Shown one piece after another: positions 21,016-38,716 of a stretch of 64,000 nucleotides of DNA. Source of the DNA: Caulobacteraceae bacterium (lineage in GTDB: Bacteria > Pseudomonadota > Alphaproteobacteria > Caulobacterales > Caulobacteraceae); assembly GCA_947441065.1 (NCBI GenBank), contig CANESI010000008.1, positions 1 to 64,000 on the forward strand. The letters are read 5' to 3'. The notes under the pieces were generated by a model. The model did not search any database, was not told where the DNA came from, and saw only the letters and a list, made by a program, of their open reading frames with translations. Position 1 is the stretch's first letter; each line of letters starts with the position of its first letter. The position numbers were made by a program, and so were the translations under genes.

Positions 21016-21936
21016 CTAAGACCCGAGAATCCAGCCCTCTTCGGTTTGAGCAATGGCGAGGCTGGCCTCATCCACGCCCTTGGGCGCGGCGAAGAGTTCG
21101 CCAAATTTTCCGGCCTCATCCAGCTTTGCAAACTGTTCGGCGAGAGCACGAAGCTGGGCGATGGCCTTGGCCTCACCCGGCGCGGGATTGGCCTTGGCGG
21201 CCATAGGATCAACCTCTGCGACGACCAGATCAACGCCATCCAGTTCTGCCGGGGTTAGCGTTTGCCAGCCGGTTTCCATCGGCCAGATCTTCATGGCGTC
21301 AGCCTTGGCGGCCTTCAGGCGGCTCACCGCAGGGATGCCCAGGATGGTCTGCCCCCCGATTGAGCCCGCATAATAGAGTTTCCAGATCGAGCGCCCCGTC
21401 TTTGCGGCGATGTCTGTGAGACGCATCTCTGGCAGGTCGCCCTCGCCATGGTCGCGGGTCTTTTTGGGCTGCAGGGTCGTGAGCGTATCGCGCGGTGCAC
21501 AGCCCCAGAAGGGGAACGGCCCGTCGGTGACCCGGCGGTTGATCTCAGCGGCCACACCAAAGCGGTTATTGGTATTGTCCACCTTGTCCTTGACCATCTT
21601 GTCGAGCCAATTCCACACAGCGCGCCAGCGTGGCTCTGTGGTTAGCTTGAGGGCCGGTGCCAATCCCGTCGGGAAGCCGAGCGGGAAGTCAAAGCCGATA
21701 AAGGCCTTTTCGTTACGCTTCTTTAGATCCTCAAGGATCAGACCTAGCCGCTTTTCAGCCTCGGCCCGGGTTGTCGTGGTGAAAGAGTCAAAGGCCAGCC
21801 GAAAGCGAACATCGCGCTTGAGAACGCCAATCGACACACAGTCGGTCCCAGTCGCGGCCTTCGAGGCGGCGCTCCAGTCAACAATCACATAGGCACTAAA
21901 AAGCCGGGACACCGATAACTCCCAAAAGGTCGGCAA
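21016..21936 (-). CDS. Conserved hypothetical protein, DUF429-like (predicted RNase H-like fold)
   Basis: A 306-residue soluble protein. YVIVDWSAASKAATG near the N-terminus and FIGFDFPLGFPTG near residue 85 are the two acidic motifs seen in DUF429-like proteins, which are predicted to have an RNase H-like fold. The C-terminal part (VDLVVAEVDPMAAKA, about 235-250, and the Asp/Glu-rich end) would complete such a site. No substrate is known. It is monocistronic, convergent to the helicase gene. The family call is from motif memory and should be treated as tentative. Confidence 0.5.
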   Translation of the reverse strand: MPTFWELSVSRLFSAYVIVDWSAASKAATGTDCVSIGVLKRDVRFRLAFDSFTTTTRAEAEKRLGLILEDLKKRNEKAFIGFDFPLGFPTGLAPALKLTTEPRWRAVWNWLDKMVKDKVDNTNNRFGVAAEINRRVTDGPFPFWGCAPRDTLTTLQPKKTRDHGEGDLPEMRLTDIAAKTGRSIWKLYYAGSIGGQTILGIPAVSRLKAAKADAMKIWPMETGWQTLTPAELDGVDLVVAEVDPMAAKANPAPGEAKAIAQLRALAEQFAKLDEAGKFGELFAAPKGVDEASLAIAQTEEGWILGS

Positions 21937-22056
21937 GAATGGACAGGCGGGGCTTTAGCCGATCCACGGGATGAAAGGAAATGTTCGTCTTTGCTAAAGC
22001 CCGCCCTTTTTCATATGGCCGAGGCTAAGGCTTTCGAATGGGCCTGTTTTCGGGCC

Positions 22057-22833
22057 CTAGATGCTCTCCAAAGGTCGCGATGCAGGCTCGCGGTCACGCG
22101 AGGACATCAGGACCCATCCGTTGGGGCGCAGGATTTCAAGCGGGTTAAAGCGGGCCTTGTAGGCCATCTTGTCGCTACCCTTCACCCAATAGCCCAGATA
22201 GACCTTTGGAATGTCTCGGCTGAGGGCTTGATTGACGTGATCGAGGATGATCAGGGAGCCGAGACTCCGCTTTACCGCCTCCGGATTATAGAAGCTGTAA
22301 ACCAAAGATAGCCCGTCAGACAGTTGATCCACGAGCGCGCAGGCGATTAACGCGCCAACCCCGTGGCCTTCAGGCGCAAGTCGATATTCAACCATATGCG
22401 TGCGCACGCTGGTATCTTCGACCATGGCGACGAAGTCTGGCCAGGTCATGTCGGCCATGCCGCCTTCGGAATGGCGATGGGATAGATACCGCCTTAGGAG
22501 CTCAAACTGCTCCATGGTCGCTTCAGCCCTGACCTGATGGCGAACCAGATCTTGGTTACGGTCCAAAACACGCCGCTCAGAGCGAGAAAACACATAATCT
22601 GCAACCGGAATGCGTGCGGAGACGCAGCCGTCGCAACCGTCACAGGCCGGGCGATAGGCGATATTTTGTGACCGACGAAAGCCGATCTGGGTGAGGGTGT
22701 CATTGACGGTTGGTCCGTCAGCCATAGGCAGGTGCGCGAACACCTTTCTTTCAACCTTTTCAGGCAGATAGGGACAGGGTGCTGGTGCGGTCAAAAAGAA
22801 CCGTAGCTGGCGAGAGGCAAAATGGTGCGTCAC
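22057..22833 (-). CDS. bpt: Aspartate/glutamate leucyltransferase (N-end rule)
   Basis: A 258-residue protein taken from GTG 22833 (VTHHFASRQLRFFLTAPAPC), which matches the usual family start; the open frame goes 12 codons further. Motifs: CPYLPEKVERKVF near 22, RRSQNIAYRPACDGCDGCVSAR near 55, DGLSLVYSFYNPE and YLGYWVKGSDKMAYKARFNP at the C-terminus. Bpt moves leucine from Leu-tRNA to proteins with N-terminal Asp or Glu, marking them for ClpS/ClpAP. The call over Ate1 is based on size and bacterial-type sequence. Confidence 0.88.
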   Translation of the reverse strand: MTHHFASRQLRFFLTAPAPCPYLPEKVERKVFAHLPMADGPTVNDTLTQIGFRRSQNIAYRPACDGCDGCVSARIPVADYVFSRSERRVLDRNQDLVRHQVRAEATMEQFELLRRYLSHRHSEGGMADMTWPDFVAMVEDTSVRTHMVEYRLAPEGHGVGALIACALVDQLSDGLSLVYSFYNPEAVKRSLGSLIILDHVNQALSRDIPKVYLGYWVKGSDKMAYKARFNPLEILRPNGWVLMSSRDREPASRPLESI

Positions 22834-28712: not shown

Positions 28713-30050
28713 TTGACCCAGACCTTCGACCTGATCGTTCGCGGCGGCACCTTGGTCAGTCATGCGGGGCAAGGCCTTGCTGATGTCGGCATAAGGGACG
28801 GAAAGATTGTCGCGGTTGGTGATCTGGGCCAGGCCAGTGCGGGCGAGATCTTTGATGCGCGCGGCCTGACCGTTCTTCCGGGCGTCATTGATAGCCAGGT
28901 TCACTTTCGCGAGCCGGGTTTGGAATGGAAAGAGGATCTGGAGACTGGCTCACGCGGCGCGGTTCTTGGCGGTGTGACCGCGGTCTTCGAGATGCCCAAT
29001 ACCGAGCCGACGACCACTGATCCTGACGCTTTGCTGGACAAGCTCAGCCGGGCCAAGGGGCGGATGCATTGCGATCACGCCTTCTATGTCGGCGGGACCC
29101 ACGAGAACACGGCCTTTCTGGGTGAGATGGAGCGGCTTCCCGGCTGCTGCGGCATCAAGGTCTTTATGGGCGCCTCGACCGGGTCGCTGCTGGTCGCCGA
29201 TGACGAGGGTGTCGAGGCCGTCTTGCGCAACATTTCTCGCCGAGCCGCCTTCCATTCGGAAGATGAATATCGCCTAGCTGACCGGCGTAGCTTGGCCCGG
29301 ACCGGGGACTGGACCAGTCATCCTGAGGTTCGTGACGCCCAATCGGCGATCCAATCGACAGAGCGTCTGGTGTCCATCGCCAAGCGCTTGGGCAAGCGCA
29401 TCCACGTCCTGCATGTGACGACCGCGCAAGAGATCGATTATCTCGCCCGTCACAAGGATGTGGCCAGCGTGGAATTGACCCCGCAGCACCTGACCCTCAC
29501 CGGGCCAGAGGCCTATGAGCGGTTGAAGGGCTTTGCCCAGATGAACCCGCCGATCCGTGACATTTCCCATCAGTCCGGCCTGTGGCGCGGTATCGCCATG
29601 GGCGTTGCCGATGTGATGGGCTCTGACCACGCGCCCCATACGCGCGAGGAAAAGGCACGGCCCTATCCGGCCTCTCCCTCGGGTATGCCGGGGGTTCAAA
29701 CACTAGTCCCGGTCATGCTGACCCACGTCAATGCGGGGCGCCTGAGCCTTGAACGCTTTGTCGATCTGACCAGTCACGGCGTGCAGCGGGTCTTTGGCTT
29801 GGCCGATAAGGGCCGCGTGGCCGAGGGCTTTGATGCGGACCTGACCATTGTAGACATGAAGGCGAGGCGGACCATCACCCACGAGCAGATGGCCACCCGC
29901 TCGGGCTGGACCCCGTTCGATGGTTTTGAAGCCACCGCTTGGCCGATGGCCACCATTATTCGCGGCAAGATCGTCATGCGCGATGATGAAGTGGTAGCCG
30001 AAGGGCAGGGCGAACCCGTAAGGTTCCACGAAACACTGGGCCCAGCATAG
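28713..30050 (+). CDS. pyrC: Dihydroorotase (class I type)
   Basis: A 445-residue amidohydrolase from a TTG at 28713, with AGGAG five bases upstream. Metal-site residues: the first motif reads IDSQVHFREPG, so the usual HxH is Q62-x-H64; then carboxylated Lys149 (GIKVFMGASTG), His181 (AAFHSEDE), His234 (HVLHVTT) and Asp305 (MGSDHAPHT). It closes carbamoyl-aspartate to dihydroorotate in pyrimidine synthesis. I recall the QxH variant in other alphaproteobacterial proteins of this class, so it may still be active. Allantoinase-like activity is the alternative. Confidence 0.8.
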   Translation: MTQTFDLIVRGGTLVSHAGQGLADVGIRDGKIVAVGDLGQASAGEIFDARGLTVLPGVIDSQVHFREPGLEWKEDLETGSRGAVLGGVTAVFEMPNTEPTTTDPDALLDKLSRAKGRMHCDHAFYVGGTHENTAFLGEMERLPGCCGIKVFMGASTGSLLVADDEGVEAVLRNISRRAAFHSEDEYRLADRRSLARTGDWTSHPEVRDAQSAIQSTERLVSIAKRLGKRIHVLHVTTAQEIDYLARHKDVASVELTPQHLTLTGPEAYERLKGFAQMNPPIRDISHQSGLWRGIAMGVADVMGSDHAPHTREEKARPYPASPSGMPGVQTLVPVMLTHVNAGRLSLERFVDLTSHGVQRVFGLADKGRVAEGFDADLTIVDMKARRTITHEQMATRSGWTPFDGFEATAWPMATIIRGKIVMRDDEVVAEGQGEPVRFHETLGPA

Positions 30051-30072
30051 GGCGACCAAATAGGGACGAGCG

Positions 30073-31863
30073 ATGGACGGACAGGTGAACATAGAAACGG
30101 CACCCTTCCGCGACGCGCGCTATGCCCCCCGCCAGTTGGTTGTCGAGCGCGGTGCTGATGGGGCGATGGTCCTCCGCAACCCAACGCCCTTTCGCCAAGA
30201 CTTCCTGACCATGACCGAGGTGCTCAACCACGGCGCAGCAACCCATCCCGACCGCCTATGGCTCGCCGAGCGTGATGGCGAGGGCTGGACCCAGCATACC
30301 TATGGGCAGGGTGCGGCAGCGGTAAAGGCCTTGGCTGGAGGTTTGGCAGGCCTTGGTCTGACCCGTGGTACGACGCTCCTGATCCTTTCGCGCAACAGCA
30401 TTGATCAGGCCTTGGTCTCCTATGCGGCCATGAGCCTTGGCGCGCCGATTGCGCCCGTGTCGCCGCAATATGGGTTGGCGGGAGCAGACCTGTCGCGGCT
30501 GGGCTATGCGGTCGATCTGATCAAGCCTGTGGCCGTCTATGTCGATGATGCGGCAGCCTTTGCCGGCGCGCTTGAGGCCCCGTTCCTTGCGGGCTTGCCG
30601 GTCATTGTCAGCCGTAACGGTCGGGCGGGCGATCACAGCCTTGCCGACCTTCTGACGGCCGACCCCATGGCCCCGACGGCGCAGCCAGGCGATATTGCCA
30701 AGCTGCTCTTGACCTCAGGCTCGACGGGTAAACCCAAGGCGGTGGTCGGATTGCACCGCAACATCTGTATCAATGCTGCCCAGATTACCGCCTGTTTTGA
30801 TGATCCAGAGCCGCCTGTTGTGGTCAATGCGGCCCCCTGGAGCCACAGCTTAGGTGCCAATTCGATCCTGCACATGGTCACCCATCGGGGGGGATCGCTC
30901 TATATCGATGCCGGCCAGCCGACCCCCGAGCGGTTTGCAGAAACCTTGCGCAATCTCAGAGAGATATCGCCAACCTATCACAATATGGTTCCGGCAGGAT
31001 GGGGCCTGTTTGCGGGTGCGCTCGAGCAGGATGAAGCGCTGGCTAGGACCTTCTTTGCTCGGGTTCGCGTCCTGCAATATGGCGGAGCCAATCTGGCCCA
31101 AAGCGTCTGTGATCGTATTCAAGCGGTCAGTGTGCGCCTGACCGGAGAGCGTCTGACCTTTGCCACGGGCTATGGCTCGACCGAGACCGGGCCCACAGCG
31201 TGCAATATTCACTGGCTCAATGATCGAACGGGAATGTGCGGCCTGCCGGTGCCGGGAACCTCGGTGAAGCTGGCGCCCGAGGGCAGCAAGTTCGAAATAA
31301 GGGTCAAGGGGCCTCAGATTTCCCCCGGCTATTATAATGATCCGGAAAAATCAGCCGCGGCTTTTGATGATGAGGGCTTCTACCGACTTGGCGATGCGGC
31401 CCGGTTGCAGGACGAGGCCGATCCAGAAGCGGGTCTGGTGTTCGATGGCCGTCTGGTCGAGAACTTCAAGCTGGCTTCGGGCACCTTTGTGGCGGCTGGT
31501 TCCTTGCAGATCACGGCCATTTCGGCGGTCGGCGGGGCAGTCGCCGATGCCGTGGTCTGCGGCGAGGGCAAGGATGGCGTTGGTCTTCTATTGTTCCTCA
31601 ATGCCCCGTTCTGCGCGAGGCTGGGCGATGCCAATGCGGTTCGTGTGGCTGTCCGTGCAGGGCTTCAACGCATGAATGCAGAGGCGCGCGGCGGCGGTGG
31701 CAAGGTGGCGAGAGCCATCATCCTGTCCGGTGCGCCGGACCCGCTTTCGGGTGAAATCACCGATAAGGGCTATATCAATCAGGCCCTGTCGCGTCAGCAG
31801 CGGGCCGCAGATGTCGAGCGCCTGTTCGCCATCACGCCCGACGATGATGTTCTGACCTTTTAG
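30073..31863 (+). CDS. Feruloyl-CoA synthetase-like AMP-binding enzyme
   Basis: A 596-residue adenylate-forming enzyme. The P-loop LLLTSGSTGKPKAVVGLHRN lies near 215, TGYGSTETGPT near 363 and YRLGDAARL near 438; the late part DGRLVENFKLASGTFV and GEITDKGYINQ are typical of the feruloyl-CoA synthase branch rather than fatty-acid ligases. It would activate a phenylpropenoic or similar aromatic acid to its CoA ester. Hydratase/aldolase genes expected for ferulate breakdown are not next to it. It starts 22 bases after the dihydroorotase stop. Confidence 0.78.
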   Translation: MDGQVNIETAPFRDARYAPRQLVVERGADGAMVLRNPTPFRQDFLTMTEVLNHGAATHPDRLWLAERDGEGWTQHTYGQGAAAVKALAGGLAGLGLTRGTTLLILSRNSIDQALVSYAAMSLGAPIAPVSPQYGLAGADLSRLGYAVDLIKPVAVYVDDAAAFAGALEAPFLAGLPVIVSRNGRAGDHSLADLLTADPMAPTAQPGDIAKLLLTSGSTGKPKAVVGLHRNICINAAQITACFDDPEPPVVVNAAPWSHSLGANSILHMVTHRGGSLYIDAGQPTPERFAETLRNLREISPTYHNMVPAGWGLFAGALEQDEALARTFFARVRVLQYGGANLAQSVCDRIQAVSVRLTGERLTFATGYGSTETGPTACNIHWLNDRTGMCGLPVPGTSVKLAPEGSKFEIRVKGPQISPGYYNDPEKSAAAFDDEGFYRLGDAARLQDEADPEAGLVFDGRLVENFKLASGTFVAAGSLQITAISAVGGAVADAVVCGEGKDGVGLLLFLNAPFCARLGDANAVRVAVRAGLQRMNAEARGGGGKVARAIILSGAPDPLSGEITDKGYINQALSRQQRAADVERLFAITPDDDVLTF

Positions 31864-31878
31864 ATACGGAGAGCTCCG

Positions 31879-33420
31879 ATGAATGGCGCTGACGTCCTGA
31901 TCCAAACCTTGGCGGATAATGGCTTGGAGGCCTGTTTCGCCAATCCGGGAACCAGCGAGATGCAGTTTGTCTCGGCGCTGGACCGCGAACCGCGCATGCG
32001 CTCGGTGCTCTGTCTGTTTGAAGGGGTGGCGACCGGGGCGGCCGATGGCTATGGCCGGATGGCGGGAAAGCCTGCTGTGACCCTGCTTCATCTGGGACCG
32101 GGCTATGCCAATGGCGGGGCCAATTTGCACAATGCGCGTAAGGCTGGAACGCCGGTGGTCAATGTCATTGGTGATCACGCGACCTATCACCGCCAGTATG
32201 ACGCGCCGCTCAATTCCGATATTGCGACCTGGGCCAAAGCCAATTCCAATTGGATCGCGTCCGCCGAAACCGCCGATCAGGTCGGAGACCTTGCCTCGCA
32301 AGCCATTGCCGCCAGCTATGGTCCGCCAGGCGGCTGCGCCAGCCTGATCCTTCCCGCCGACAGCGCCTGGTCCGAAGCCAGTCGCAAGGGGCCTGTCGTC
32401 GAGATCCCTCAGCGTGCGACGCCAGCGGTCAGCGCCATTGCCGCCACCGCCGCGAAGTTAAAGGCTGCCAAATCCCCTGTGGTCCTGATCGGCGGGTCTG
32501 CCTGTACCGAAGCGGGGCTGAGGGCGGCTGGGCGGTTAAAGGCTGCGGGTATTCGTGTCCTTACCGACACCTTTGTCGCCCGTCTGTCGCGCGGGGAGGG
32601 ACGGTTTAACCCCGACAAGATGCTCTATTTCGGAGAAATGGCGCTTAAGGATCTGGCGGGTAGCGACCTGATGGTGCTGGTCGAAACCGCCATGCCGGTA
32701 TCCTTCTTCGCCTATCCGGACATGCCCAGCGTTCTGGTGCCCGAGGGCTGCGCGCTTGAGCCCCTGTGCGACAGGTCACAGGACGGGATCGCGACCTTAA
32801 ACCGGTTGGCCGATGCGCTTGGTGCGCCGCAGGATGTCGCCTTGACCACCTATGCGCCGCAAGGCTGCCCGAGCGGGGAATTGACCGCCTACACGATTGG
32901 CACCTCCATAGCGCGGCACATGCCAAGCCAAGCTGTTATCTCCGATGACGCGGTGACGGCGGGCTTGCCGGTCTATACGCAAACAGCGCAGGCGCGGGCC
33001 CATGAATGGCTGATGCTAACGGGCGGGGCGATCGGGCAAGGCATTCCCTTGGCCATCGGCGCGGCGGTTGCCTGTCCCGACCGAAAGGTCCTGTCCCTCA
33101 ATGGTGACGGCGCGGCCATGTATACGGTGCAAGGGCTCTGGACGATCGCGCGCGAGAATTTGGACGTGACTGTGGTGGTCTTTGCCAACCATGCCTATCG
33201 CATCCTCAATATTGAGCTTGCCCGCACGGGGGCTGGAAAGCCTGGCACCGCCGCCAAGAAGCTGCTCGATCTTGGATCGCCGCGCATCGACTGGATGGGG
33301 CTAGCCAGCGCTCTAGGCCTGCCCTCCGTGCGCTGTGACACGGCAGAGAGCTTTGATGCCGCCATGGCCAGGGCCATGGGGCAGAAGGGGCCACAGTTCA
33401 TCGAGGCGGCCCTGCTCTAG
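31879..33420 (+). CDS. Thiamine-diphosphate enzyme, acetolactate synthase/benzoylformate decarboxylase-like
   Basis: A 513-residue ThDP-family protein with the usual three domains. The catalytic Glu47 is in LFEGVATGAADGYGRMAGKPA; the ThDP/Mg motif GDGAAMYTVQGLWT running to FANHAYR lies near 413-437. It is shorter than housekeeping IlvB and lacks a small subunit nearby, so an IlvB role is doubtful. It begins 16 bases after the CoA-ligase stop, with a clear GGAG site, so the pair is probably one unit acting on the same aromatic or alpha-keto acid route. Substrate unknown. Confidence 0.75.
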   Translation: MNGADVLIQTLADNGLEACFANPGTSEMQFVSALDREPRMRSVLCLFEGVATGAADGYGRMAGKPAVTLLHLGPGYANGGANLHNARKAGTPVVNVIGDHATYHRQYDAPLNSDIATWAKANSNWIASAETADQVGDLASQAIAASYGPPGGCASLILPADSAWSEASRKGPVVEIPQRATPAVSAIAATAAKLKAAKSPVVLIGGSACTEAGLRAAGRLKAAGIRVLTDTFVARLSRGEGRFNPDKMLYFGEMALKDLAGSDLMVLVETAMPVSFFAYPDMPSVLVPEGCALEPLCDRSQDGIATLNRLADALGAPQDVALTTYAPQGCPSGELTAYTIGTSIARHMPSQAVISDDAVTAGLPVYTQTAQARAHEWLMLTGGAIGQGIPLAIGAAVACPDRKVLSLNGDGAAMYTVQGLWTIARENLDVTVVVFANHAYRILNIELARTGAGKPGTAAKKLLDLGSPRIDWMGLASALGLPSVRCDTAESFDAAMARAMGQKGPQFIEAALL

Positions 33421-33450: not shown

Positions 33451-33480
33451 AAACCCGCCGGAGTGATCTCCGGCGGGTTT
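33451..33480. terminator. Bidirectional rho-independent terminator
   Basis: AAACCCGCCGGAG, loop TGAT, CTCCGGCGGGTTT: a perfect 13-pair stem whose outer pairs are A-T, giving an A-run on one side and a T-run on the other. It sits 30 bases after the ThDP enzyme stop and 22 before the stop of the converging Cys-repeat gene, so it should end both transcripts. Confidence 0.92.
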
Positions 33481-33502: not shown

Positions 33503-34855
33503 CTATTTCAGCGTATTACCGGGAAGCTTACAGCCGCCGCCAATACCCTTAGCTTGGGTGCAGCTGAGCACCGACTTGGGGGCTTCGACGCCAGCCGTAT
33601 ATTCGATGACCCAGCCGGGCAGGCCATCAGAGCAGGCCACTTCCAAGAACTCCGACGTTTCCGCGCGCCCGATCATGTTGACGTTTGACACAGTGCAGGT
33701 GGACTTGCCGAGCGACTTCAAGCTGGTGGTCAGCTTTGGATAGGCCAACTCTTGCTTGGAGTAGCTGCAACGATAGCCCGAAAGTTGCGAGCGCACGCAG
33801 TCTAGAATTTGCGGTTTCACACCAGCCGCCACAGGGAAGATGCCCACGGCGCCGTCGGGACGGTTCTTACAGGCCAGCTCGACAACTTCCTTGTCATTGC
33901 CCTGGACCGGAAAGACCCCGTACTTGTCGACGTCGCAGTTAAAACCGGCCTTCTTGGCAAGGCTGGAATAGAGGCCAGCCTGCTGAGTTTCGGCTTCGCG
34001 CGCATCGGTCAGGGTGCAGCCACCGCCAACGAAAGCCGCTTCCGCGCACTTGATCGTCTTGGCCAGCTGTTCGGCCTTAACCTGAAGCATGAAGCCTTCG
34101 CCCGACTGGCAGGCGATCTCGTAATATTCCGAGCCGTCGACAGTCGCCAGAACATAGCGGGTGCCGCTGATGTCACAGGTCTTGCTCGACTGGGTCATCA
34201 TGGCCTTGATCGGCTCAAGGTTCTGCTCAGGAGTGGTCAGTTCGCAGCTCTTGCCCGATTGGCCGAAAGCGACGCACGACATGGCCGTAATCTTGCGATC
34301 CGCCGTGGCTGGCATGCTGGCGAGCATCACCATGCCAGCGCCAGACTTACAGGCCAGTTCATAGTAGGCGCTGGCTGGGCTTTGACCAATATAGCGAGCC
34401 CTATCGATGGCGCAACTCGAACCCGTCTTGGCGATTAAGGGCTGCAGGCCCGCGACCGGATTGGCGTTGCCGGGCAGCAAGCAGGACAGGCTGTTCTTCT
34501 GAGGTTTGCCATCTGGCCCAATGGCAGGGGCTGACGTGGCCACGCAGTCATAGGTCAGGGGAACGGAGTCATCGGTCTTGGCTTGAATGATGTAGCCTAG
34601 GCCTTCAGAGCAGGCGACTTCGAAGAAAGCGGTCGTGACCTTCACGCCGTCCTTCTTTTCATCGGACGAACCGACAAATCGCGCGTCGGTTAGGCTGCAG
34701 GCCACGCCAGACTTGGCGATGATTTCGGGGGCCTTAGCCATCCCTGCCTTGCGTGCTACCTCGGGTATGCCAGCCGGTGCCTTGGGGGCAGCGAGAGCGG
34801 GCGATGCAATCGCGAAGGTGATTGCGGCGATGAGCCCCAGTCCAAATGGCCTCAT
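33503..34855 (-). CDS. Secreted protein of five four-cysteine tandem repeats, function unknown
   Basis: A 450-residue protein with signal peptide (residues 1-22, ends PALAA). The rest is five tandem repeats of about 80 residues with exactly four Cys each: 53/82/104/125, 148/169/194/204, 227/249/270/280, 307/329/353/363 and 387/408/432/442. Each unit reads roughly K-S/T-xx-C, R-Y/F-V/I-G, then YYE-V/I/L-AC-x-SG-x-G, C, and ends GGGC-x-L. There are no other cysteines. It is alone between a terminator and a divergent MBL gene. I do not recognise the family; periplasmic location and disulfides are inferred. Confidence 0.8.
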   Translation of the reverse strand: MRPFGLGLIAAITFAIASPALAAPKAPAGIPEVARKAGMAKAPEIIAKSGVACSLTDARFVGSSDEKKDGVKVTTAFFEVACSEGLGYIIQAKTDDSVPLTYDCVATSAPAIGPDGKPQKNSLSCLLPGNANPVAGLQPLIAKTGSSCAIDRARYIGQSPASAYYELACKSGAGMVMLASMPATADRKITAMSCVAFGQSGKSCELTTPEQNLEPIKAMMTQSSKTCDISGTRYVLATVDGSEYYEIACQSGEGFMLQVKAEQLAKTIKCAEAAFVGGGCTLTDAREAETQQAGLYSSLAKKAGFNCDVDKYGVFPVQGNDKEVVELACKNRPDGAVGIFPVAAGVKPQILDCVRSQLSGYRCSYSKQELAYPKLTTSLKSLGKSTCTVSNVNMIGRAETSEFLEVACSDGLPGWVIEYTAGVEAPKSVLSCTQAKGIGGGCKLPGNTLK

Positions 34856-35084
34856 GGGTACGTCTCCTGGAATTCCTGACCCTTGCGGGCTTATGATGGT
34901 TGCCTTTGACGGAGCATAAGCCCCTTCATGTGGGTCTGGTCAAGTTTGACTGTGACTGAGACCAAACTAAGACCGTGAATCAGGCATATTGTGCCTAGAC
35001 CGAGACCTCTATTGGCATCATTGGATTGCCACGACAATTGCTCGCATTATCGGCTTGGACCTTTAGCCGCAGGAGACTTTCGAC

Positions 35085-36155
35085 GTGCAGGACGGAACCC
35101 AAGAAGATCCCACCGACATCGCTGAGCGCCGTCCGGCTCTGGTTTACCCCTTTGAGACGGTTCCCGAAGATGGCGAGACCTTAGAGATCGCGCCGGGTCT
35201 AATTTGGATCCGCATGGGCCTGCCCTTCGCTCTGGCGCACATTAATCTCTGGGCGATTCGCGACGGCGAAGGCTGGGCAATTGTCGATACAGGGGTTCAG
35301 ACCCGCGAAACGGCAGCCGCTTGGCGCAAGATTTTCGCCGGTCCCTTAGAGGGCAAGCCTGTCACGCGGGTTTTTGTCACCCACATGCATCCGGACCATA
35401 TCGGCATGGCGGGATGGATCACGCGTAAGTTTGGCTGCCGTCTTTGGATGAGCCGGTTGGAATATATCTCTTGCCGCATGCTGACGGCCGATACGGGGCG
35501 CGAAGCCCCGGACGATGGCGTGCGTTTCTATAATGCGGCCGGTTGGGACGAAGAGTCGATCGAGACCTACAAGGCCCGCTTCGGTGGCTTTGGTAAGGGC
35601 GTTCACGCCATGCCCGACAGCTATCGCCGCCTCAGCGAGGGCGATGAGATCCAGATCGGGGACTATAGCTGGCGTGTTGTGGTTGGGTCGGGTCACTCGC
35701 CCGAACATGCCTGTCTCTATAATGAGGAACTGAAGTTACTGATTTCCGGCGATCAGGTCCTGCCGAAAATCTCATCCAACGTCTCGGTCTTTCCGACTGA
35801 GCCCGACGGCGACCCCTTAACCGATTGGCTAACCTCACTGGCGCGGATCAAGACCATGGTTCCGGACGATGTTCTGGTTCTCCCCGCCCACAATGAGCCT
35901 TTCCACGGTCTTCACGCTCGCCTTGATCACCTGATCCGGGGCCATGAGCGGGCCTTGACGCGGCTCTTGTCCTCGCTCGCCGTGCCAAAGCGCAGCATCG
36001 ATGTGTTTGGATCGCTCTTTGCCCGTAAGATTGGACCAGAGGTTCTGGGCATGGCCACCGGCGAGAGCCTAGCCCACCTGAACTGTCTGATGGGGCGGGG
36101 TCTGGTCGTCGCTGAACCGGATGAGCAGGGCGTGCTCTGGTACCGCGCGGCCTAG
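35085..36155 (+). CDS. MBL-fold metallohydrolase
   Basis: A 356-residue protein read from GTG 35085 with GGAG nine bases upstream. The metallo-beta-lactamase motif is FVTHMHPDHIGMAG (HxHxDH, near 100); GSGHSPEHACLYN (near 207), LLISGDQVLP and LPAHNEPFHG supply the other ligands. A C-terminal helical domain (about 280-356) resembles a winged-helix tail seen in several MBL subfamilies. No signal peptide, so cytoplasmic. The 229-base gap before it shows no recognisable site. Substrate unknown; its TAG stop shares CTAG with flbY. Confidence 0.82.
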   Translation: MQDGTQEDPTDIAERRPALVYPFETVPEDGETLEIAPGLIWIRMGLPFALAHINLWAIRDGEGWAIVDTGVQTRETAAAWRKIFAGPLEGKPVTRVFVTHMHPDHIGMAGWITRKFGCRLWMSRLEYISCRMLTADTGREAPDDGVRFYNAAGWDEESIETYKARFGGFGKGVHAMPDSYRRLSEGDEIQIGDYSWRVVVGSGHSPEHACLYNEELKLLISGDQVLPKISSNVSVFPTEPDGDPLTDWLTSLARIKTMVPDDVLVLPAHNEPFHGLHARLDHLIRGHERALTRLLSSLAVPKRSIDVFGSLFARKIGPEVLGMATGESLAHLNCLMGRGLVVAEPDEQGVLWYRAA

Positions 36156-36577
36156 GCGCTGCGGTTGAGGGTCAGGGACGTCGCATTGACCTTGGACGAT
36201 TGAGCGCCGGGCCCATAACCAGAGCCGGTTGGACGTGAAGACGCCACCTCTTCGGCAATGGCCCGCACCAGACCTTCGGTGACAAACTTTGCCGACTCGA
36301 CGGCTCGGCCATGTCGGGCCAAGACCGCATCAAAGGCCTCTGTCGCCGTGATCAGGCTTTGGCGGGCGGGCAGGGATGTTTCGGCCAAGACATGAGGCGC
36401 TTCACGCAGCCTTTGCGATTCATGGCGGTAGATATTGGCCAGCCGCGAGGTCTCATCGAGCGTCTTTGCCGCTTCGAGCGGTTTATTATCCTCGAAATCC
36501 TTACATTCCTTGGCGAGGCGCGCCGTCAGGATCTGTGTCAGTTCCGTCATTTGATTGATGCGGGCATCGGGGTTCAT
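36152..36577 (-). CDS. flbY: Flagellar protein FlbY (FlgN-like)
   Basis: A 141-residue mainly helical protein ([20 protein letters not shown] to LYR-like helices, then a Ser/Gly/Ala-rich tail). In Caulobacter the gene after cheL in the flgI operon is flbY, and this protein fits its size and place. It starts in the cheL stop (ATGA overlap). Sequence alone only says helical and small; the name leans on synteny. FlgN-like export chaperone function is an inference. Confidence 0.75.
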
Positions 36578-36921
36578 TTGACAGGTTCCTGAACGGTGGG
36601 GGTCGGGGATAGGCCTTGCATCTTGAGCATCTCTTGCGTGACCGAGGCGGCAATGCCGACCCCGCCCGCCTTGGTCATTTGCTTGGCAAAGGCGTCCATG
36701 AGGAAGGACTTGAAGGCCTGCTCACCTTGGCCGCCGCCAAAGGGTTCCGACGTATTGACGCCAGAAAACATGGTTTGAAAGGCGGTTGAGAGGAACACGG
36801 ACTCAAATTCCTTCGCCGTCTTTTCAATCCGGGCGCGAGGGTCAGTAACGGAGCCGTAGTTCGAAATCTGAGGCGTTGGCCGCATCAGGTCGATGGGAAG
36901 GGACGAAGCGCTCAAATTCAT
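36574..36921 (-). CDS. cheL: Rod-binding protein CheL (FlgJ N-terminal-like)
   Basis: A 115-residue protein with the FlgJ rod-binding pattern: [20 protein letters not shown] (about 38-57) then [28 protein letters not shown]. It lacks the muramidase half of enterobacterial FlgJ, as is usual in alphaproteobacteria, where it is called CheL. It should help rod assembly at the basal body. Its ATG overlaps the flgI stop by one base (TAATG). Confidence 0.88.
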
Positions 36922-38036
36922 TACATCACCTCAATATCGGCTTGCAGCGCGCCTGCCGCCTTGATGGTCTGGAGGATGGAGATCATGTCGCGAGGCGTGA
37001 CGCCGAGGCTGTTCAGCCCCCTAACGAGCGAGGCCAAGGATGCCCCATCTTTAAGGGTTATGAACTGCTTGCCCTTTTCCTCATCGACCGAGACCTGAGA
37101 CTGCGGTGTCACCGTCGTCTGGCCCTGCGACAGGGGATTGGGCTGGCTGACCTGAGGTGTTTCCTGAACCGTGATGGTCAGGTTACCTTGCTGAATGGCG
37201 ACGGTGGAGAGGCGAACATTCTCGCCCATGACGATGACGCCAGCGACCTCGTCGATAATGACCTTGGCCGGATTGTCAGGCTGGACCTCCAGCTGCTCGA
37301 TCTGGGTGATGTAGGTCACCAGATCGCGACCGGCAGCGGGGCGCACAGTGATGATGGAGGGATTGTCGGCTCTGGCCGAACCCGGAAAGCGCGCATTGAT
37401 CACTTCTGCGACGCGGCGGGCGGTGGTGAAGTCTGGATTGTGCAGGGTCAGACGCATCTGCGCCATGCTGGCCAGCTGAAACCCAACCTCGCGCTCGACA
37501 ATGGCCCCAGAGGCAATCCGCCCTGCCGTGGGCACGCCCTTTGAGATCGAAGAGCCAGACCCGCCTGAGGCCGAGACCGAGCCGGTCTGGACCGTGCCTT
37601 GAGCCACGGCATAGGCCTGGCCATCTGCGGCCAGCAAGGGGGTAACCAGCAGGGTGCCGCCAAGCAAGCTCTTGGCATCACCAAGGGCTGAGACCGTCGC
37701 ATCGACCTGCGATCCAGAGGCGGAAAAGGCGGGGAGGCGGGCGGTGACCATCACAGCGGCGACGTTCTTGGTGTTCATGGTCGCGTCGCGGGTATTGACG
37801 CCGAGACGCTCCAGCATGGCTTCGAGGCTTTGCTTGGTGAAGGGGGCGTTGCGCAGCGAGTCGCCGGTGCCGTTCAGGCCCACAACAATGCCGTAACCGA
37901 CCAACATATTGTCTCGCACGCCTTCGAACGCGACAATGTCCTTGATCCGCGACTTGGCGAGAACGGGTGTCGTGACCAAAGCGGCCGCAGACAGGGCGGC
38001 CATAACTGTTTTTAGAACCGAGCCGATGCGCATCAT
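36921..38036 (-). CDS. flgI: Flagellar P-ring protein FlgI
   Basis: A 371-residue protein from ATG 38036 ([20 protein letters not shown]), which gives a clean Sec signal peptide; the frame is open 11 codons further. The mature part has [32 protein letters not shown], the classic FlgI start, and ends [29 protein letters not shown]. It forms the P ring in the peptidoglycan layer. It heads the flgI-cheL-flbY operon and is preceded by a sigma-54 promoter. Confidence 0.96.
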
Positions 38037-38091
38037 AGCGGTCTGTTGATCCTTGGGTCTTGACGCCACGCGCGCCTAGCCTGATCTTTCA

Positions 38092-38108
38092 TGCGAAGTT
38101 CGTGCCAA
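38092..38108 (-). promoter_or_regulatory. Sigma-54 promoter of flgI
   Basis: On the minus strand TTGGCACGAACTTCGCA gives GG (38106-38105), ten bases, GC (38094-38093): the exact -24/-12 spacing of sigma-54, and TGGCACG is a full match to the -24 block (the -12 block is TCGC instead of TTGC). It lies about 56 bases upstream of the flgI start. Late flagellar genes in Caulobacter use RpoN with FlbD, so this fits. Confidence 0.75.
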
Positions 38109-38112
38109 GATT

Positions 38113-38120
38113 TTAACCAT
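38113..38120 (+). promoter_or_regulatory. Candidate CtrA half-site in the flgI-fliX gap
   Basis: TTAACCAT matches the left half of CtrA boxes (TTAA-N7-TTAAC), in the 248-base divergent gap; another TTAAC lies at 38197. Neither has a good second half at N7, so binding is not shown. In Caulobacter fliX is an early CtrA-controlled flagellar gene. Confidence 0.25.
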
Positions 38121-38284
38121 AAAAAAGGTTGTTGAATCAGGTTGCTAAAGTTTGGTCTTGCGAAAACGGCCTACCCACGGCAAATCCTGCCGAGCCTTAA
38201 CGTTACAGCAAGTGTGAAGGTACAAACTGTCGTCTTGCCGCCCTAGACCTTATGGGCTGCAGTTTTGGGTCAGATGGTATTGAG

Positions 38285-38716
38285 ATGAAAATCGGCGGTA
38301 CGAATGGTGTCGGGACTTCGGGTCCAGCACGGTCGGCCTCCCGCTCAGCGGGCGGTGACTTTCGGCTGTCCAAAGCCTCTGCAAACTCTGAGACCGCCTC
38401 GGCCGCTCGCGCCTCTGGTCCGACCGGCGTTGGCTCCATCGATGCGCTCATCGCGCTGCAGGAAGTCGGCGGTCCCCTAGAGCGACGCAAGAAGGCCGTG
38501 CGCCGCGCGAGTAAGATTCTCGACCTTCTCGACGATGTCCGCGACAGCCTACTGGACGATAATCTCTCATCTACGGCGTTAAACGGCCTGATGGCGGCGA
38601 TCCGAGAAGAGCGTTCAGGCGTGGATGATCCTCACCTTGAAGGCCTGTTAAACGATATAGAAACAAGGGCCTCGGTAGAGATTGCCAAGCTGGAAGTCGC
38701 CGCCCGTCGACCCTGA
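38285..38716 (+). CDS. fliX: Flagellar assembly regulator FliX
   Basis: A 143-residue protein from ATG 38285 (MKIGGTNGVG), with an unstructured Ser/Ala/Gly N-terminal half and a helical C-terminal half (SIDALIALQEVGGPLERRKKAVRRASKILDLLDDVR). This is the FliX pattern, and its divergence from flgI copies the Caulobacter layout. FliX couples early basal-body assembly to the sigma-54 activator FlbD. The open frame starts 11 codons earlier, but the family starts at MKI. Confidence 0.9.
   Translation: MKIGGTNGVGTSGPARSASRSAGGDFRLSKASANSETASAARASGPTGVGSIDALIALQEVGGPLERRKKAVRRASKILDLLDDVRDSLLDDNLSSTALNGLMAAIREERSGVDDPHLEGLLNDIETRASVEIAKLEVAARRP

Follow-up and report, generated by a model that had tools for sequence, protein, structure and literature searches.

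BLIP, BVU2987, SmpA_OmlA and PepSY share a BLIP-like arrangement (PMC2954215). Members of this superfamily, among them BVU2987 with its family PF11396, are periplasmic or secreted, set a helix by four strands and occur in tandem copies, and in these respects they resemble the protein family described here. BLIP and BVU2987 have a helix-loop-helix in each module, our predicted module has a single helix and four strands, and the invariant set of four cysteines in our units is not among the BLIP-like features described (PMC2954215). For the Dsb pathway, C. crescentus has been reported to have two putative DsbA proteins, one putative DsbB, no DsbC, and ScsC acting as isomerase (PMC8900818).

Within the window, by which we mean the whole stretch of 64,000 nucleotides analysed, a gene on the minus strand encodes a protein whose mature part consists of five homologous units of ~80 residues (78–100 as cut). 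The initial annotation had placed this gene correctly, without naming a strand, and a count on the sequence bears out its statement that the 20 cysteines all lie in five groups of four, with none outside the units. The spacings it gave are also right, with C1–C2 at 29 residues in unit 1 and 21–22 in units 2–5, and C3–C4 at 21 and 10 residues, respectively. Its motif AC(S/K/Q)-x-G is present in four units but not in unit 4, which reads ACKNRPDG, and its description of the repeats as exact holds for the cysteine count but not for the sequence, unit 5 being only 16–25% identical to the other four. Profiles of single unit positions, built from 19 orthologs with the window protein among them, nevertheless each recovered the other four units in a five-sequence search (E 8e-16 to 1.4e-3), and the five are thus true internal repeats, more than chance would give, despite the low identity of unit 5.

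Table 1 Coordinates of the five-unit gene, its parts and flanking features, and of a phage gene whose product has a similar predicted fold (window positions unless a locus is given).
Feature	Position	Strand	Remarks
Whole coding sequence	33503..34855	minus	450 aa + stop; ATG at 34855, stop 33503-33505
Sec-type signal sequence	34790..34855	minus	residues 1-22; read by eye
Unit 1	34469..34768	minus	Cys 53, 82, 104, 125
Unit 2	34232..34474	minus	Cys 148, 169, 194, 204
Unit 3	34004..34237	minus	Cys 227, 249, 270, 280
Unit 4	33755..34006	minus	Cys 307, 329, 353, 363; NRPDG after second Cys
Unit 5	33518..33760	minus	Cys 387, 408, 432, 442; unit modelled alone
Candidate promoter	34914..34943	minus	TTGACC-18 nt-TTATGC; alignment and pattern search
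Likely intrinsic terminator	33451..33480	minus	22 bases past stop; 13-pair stem, 4-base loop, T-rich tail
Divergent MBL-fold hydrolase	35085..36155	plus	Lactamase_B + B_lactamase-like_C; conserved neighbour
Phage AH2 gp9	L117:3322-3579		small exported two-cysteine protein

Orthologs with as little as 39% identity still have every one of the 20 cysteines, and each of 494 units from 115 distinct homologues has exactly four cysteines and a glutamate three residues before the second, a residue that the initial annotation missed; the profile used to detect units contains these invariant positions and may have introduced a small bias, although most loci came from full-length searches. Glycine at C2+3 and C2+5, valine or isoleucine at C1+2 and leucine at C4+2 are strongly favoured. 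The repeat region holds 4, 8, 12 or 20 cysteines in all 115 homologues and never another number, and relatives with one, two or three units, including the single-unit homologues that the initial annotation had proposed to look for, reveal that the copy number of the module varies. With no cysteine lost in any of the 494 units, co-loss is uninformative on disulfide pairing. In a tree of units the sequences group by position (12 label changes, where shuffled labels give 41.5), so that the units were already distinct before the genera diverged and have stayed so. Unit 4 is the most conserved across genera, with a mean pairwise identity of 0.51 compared to 0.40–0.46 for the others.

Modelled alone, unit 5 is predicted with confidence (pLDDT 89.3, pTM 0.79) as one helix followed by four strands (H3-16 E24-32 E36-43 E50-55 E61-65). 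In the full-length model, at a pLDDT of 83.8, a largely similar order of elements recurs five times, and the pTM of just 0.55 makes the arrangement of the modules uncertain. Sequence searches of Pfam, NCBIfam, PHROG and the PDB gave no match over threshold for the window protein, and no protein of solved structure matched significantly in sequence; scans of 78 units and 19 full orthologs against Pfam, and of the same 19 against NCBIfam, produced weak scattered touches, none above the curated cut-off. A Foldseek search of one unit against the PDB likewise returned nothing significant (best E 0.59; TM-scores up to 0.44 among the best 50). The family is thus unnamed in every library tested, and a literature search, a weak negative in itself, found no paper on the five-unit protein. 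The initial annotation, which did not recognise the fold, had said that a match to a known domain family would remove the novelty and that a loss of cysteine spacing in homologues would weaken the repeat model; the results of both checks favour the repeats. A beta-propeller or lectin fold was considered and rejected, since the 48 Foldseek matches of the full model at E<=0.001 have TM-scores of about 0.10–0.15, reflecting a local four-strand pattern and no fold in common.

Among the viral models listed by Foldseek, the best geometric match to one unit is the predicted fold of Burkholderia phage AH2 gp9 (UniProt I6NLH6; TM 0.64/0.61, rmsd 2.8), the accession being equated with gp9 by its 85-residue length and content, as gp26, the other 85-residue candidate, is without a signal sequence. 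As in the unit, gp9 and two Phyllobacterium zundukense plasmid proteins have one helix and two cysteines 24 apart, behind a signal sequence, the second cysteine lying in (V)(T/A)C-D-D; they differ in having one module, no C3–C4 pair and no glutamate before the second cysteine (LTVAC, VRVTC). A profile comparison puts both cysteines in register (hhalign P 0.0064, probability 5.9%, with a shallow template of 3 sequences). With a Foldseek E of 1.1 and an hhalign probability of 6%, we regard kinship as a suggestive but weak lead; if related, these proteins would favour C1–C2 pairing, and hence C3–C4. A wider search for gp9-like proteins gave one match at E 4.7e-4 and one at E 0.004 in 385 and 357 genomes, respectively, the former not looking like such a gene.

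The family is present in 294 of 299 Caulobacteraceae genomes, covering all 22 genera sampled, and in 266 of the 267 with at least 90% completeness and at most 5% contamination. Across an order-wide sample of 249 genomes, matches were confined to Caulobacteraceae bar one at E 8e-4, which spans ~60 residues with two stops and was taken as chance; on sequence, the family is not credibly present in other Caulobacterales families. In class- and phylum-wide samples, searched with a one-unit profile, a single outside genome (G819, of another alphaproteobacterial family) has an ortholog (L097:206-1267) of 353 residues, with a signal sequence, three units and a long glycine-rich insert in the first. 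On the tree its units lie closest to those at positions 1, 2 and 3 in Caulobacteraceae. As four other genomes of its family are without the protein, transfer or contamination is possible. Searches of plasmids, phages and viral contigs gave no match, and carriage as plasmid or phage cargo was dismissed. In genus g2, which may be Brevundimonas, the protein encoded at this MBL-flanked locus mostly has three units, with five units kept in two of its genomes; g22 may be Caulobacter. Near-universal presence in one family together with absence from its sister families points to a family-specific function. Caulobacter is a model for cell-envelope and cell-cycle biology, and a core exported protein of its family is here still without a domain name.

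We asked which role fits a protein of this build, and favour, at a probability of about one half, a disulfide-braced, multi-module binding protein that is periplasmic or secreted, probably rigid and acting in the cell envelope. The protein would be exported by the Sec route to the periplasm or cell surface, where the Dsb pathway would oxidise its cysteines, most likely as C1–C2 and C3–C4, giving two disulfides per module. The chain is predicted by the model to fold into five tandem alpha-beta4 modules, which may form a stiff chain that binds an envelope partner, different units offering different surfaces and unit 4 being the likeliest main site in five-unit members. An enzyme is improbable on the sequences, because the sole invariant side chain besides cysteine is the glutamate by C2, whose role looks structural. 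Good support for the initial annotation's view of a modular, exported protein of disulfide type comes from the signal sequence, the invariant cysteines, the DsbA- and DsbB-family proteins of the genome and the confident one-repeat model, which it had suggested making; for its further proposal of a repetitive ligand we found no direct evidence. A bolder version is speculative and on balance doubtful: the unit would be a disulfide-braced alpha-beta4 module of a new kind, its fold absent from the PDB, and would found a core family of Caulobacteraceae whose units, each specific to its position, attach to separate faces of a single machine in the envelope. Alpha-beta modules braced by disulfides and strung in tandem in the bacterial envelope would be of a known kind, and the new fold is, on the model, so far a candidate.

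The most specific rival, itself a particular form of binding protein, would inhibit or regulate an enzyme of the envelope in the manner of BLIP, PepSY or Spi, its modules wedging onto a protease or cell-wall hydrolase. The exported module, with its helix and four strands in one to five tandem copies, does resemble the BLIP-like arrangement (PMC2954215), and two of 78 units touch the Spi protease inhibitor family (Pfam PF13734) weakly (best E 0.0044), as does one of 19 full proteins (E 0.022; residues 29–89, from the helix to C2 of unit 1). This last touch scores 15.7 bits against a gathering score of 25, the unit touches are about what chance gives over 78 scans, and neither units nor full proteins reach the cut-off of BLIP, PepSY, SmpA_OmlA, PF11396 or Spi. 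None of these families appears among the best 50 structure matches of one unit, and BVU2987-type modules have a helix-loop-helix in place of the single helix predicted here; we consider this role unlikely, if worth keeping in view.

A role in binding repetitive polymers of the envelope (peptidoglycan, a glycan of the capsule or holdfast, or S-layer) at one site per unit, with ligands of the class proposed in the initial annotation, would suit an exported chain of tandem modules, each with one invariant glutamate and frequent aromatic residues. However, the position-wise divergence of the units argues against five equivalent sites, and grouping by position is not what such sites predict. With the other units 16–25% identical to unit 5, with propeller lectins in the full-model Foldseek list at TM-scores near 0.12 and therefore of no shared fold, and with no known glycan-binding domain above cut-off, we judge polymer binding quite improbable. 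Less probable again is a structural element or spacer of the envelope, for instance a rod or part of a layer stabilised by disulfides: near-universal presence and a kept scaffold with a surface free to drift would fit, but no anchor, lipobox or other retention signal was seen in the protein, and unit number varies from 1 to 5 among relatives. A metal or redox buffer working through cysteine thiolates is very improbable, since the 20 cysteines, and a touch of Pfam Metallothio_Pro by one ortholog at E 0.52, are set against spacings of 10–29 residues without CxxC or CxC pairs and an export signal leading to an oxidising compartment.

For the favoured binding protein, the features of a disulfide-rich exported protein are in place: a signal sequence (by eye), an even number of cysteines per unit and a Dsb system in the same genome. 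The signal sequence reads MRPFGLGLIAAITFAIASPALA followed by AP, with likely cleavage after ALA and no lipobox seen, both by eye. Nine places in this genome match Pfam DSBA and one matches DsbB. Nine is a large set for a 2.9 Mb genome, and four of the nine are two pairs on one contig (G000:C21:2255-3344 and 21045-22342). With ten likely disulfides, the protein would lend itself as a substrate to tests of the Caulobacter Dsb/ScsC pathway.

The TTGACC part and a GGCTTA-GCT part of the candidate promoter are kept in an alignment of four same-genus genomes, and the promoter pattern occurs twice in 64 kb against 0.26 expected; a generic sigma-70 scan did not call this site. The terminator scan found 1 site against 1.6 terminator-like sites in shuffles, a count that is no evidence in itself, and the call as a likely terminator stands on stem length and position. 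Given the terminator just past the stop and the largely kept upstream element, the five-unit gene most likely forms a transcription unit by itself. Its dN/dS is 0.11–0.17 against three same-genus orthologs, compared to 0.02–0.12 for its neighbours, which lie below it in each same-pair comparison (a misframed flgI comparison with L050 was left out). The gene is under purifying selection, and so working, and evolves faster than its neighbours, in keeping with a scaffold that is held constant while its surfaces vary.

The MBL-fold hydrolase gene lies divergent to the five-unit gene in 38 of 45 genomes tallied; shared regulation is possible. No signal sequence is evident by eye in the hydrolase, and the two proteins therefore probably work in different compartments. 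Beyond it (36152–38716) lie an unmatched 141-aa gene, a rod-binding (FlgJ/CheL-like) gene, flgI and a divergent fliX; a flagellar link was set aside, as flgI, flgJ and fliX adjoin in the window and its own genus and were not found close by in any other genus of the sample. On the other side, genes for an amidohydrolase, an AMP-binding ligase and a TPP-dependent enzyme stand in a row (28713–33420), often downstream of the five-unit gene on the opposite strand and beside it in many genera; they look like a catabolic cluster, of which the MBL-fold hydrolase is perhaps a part.
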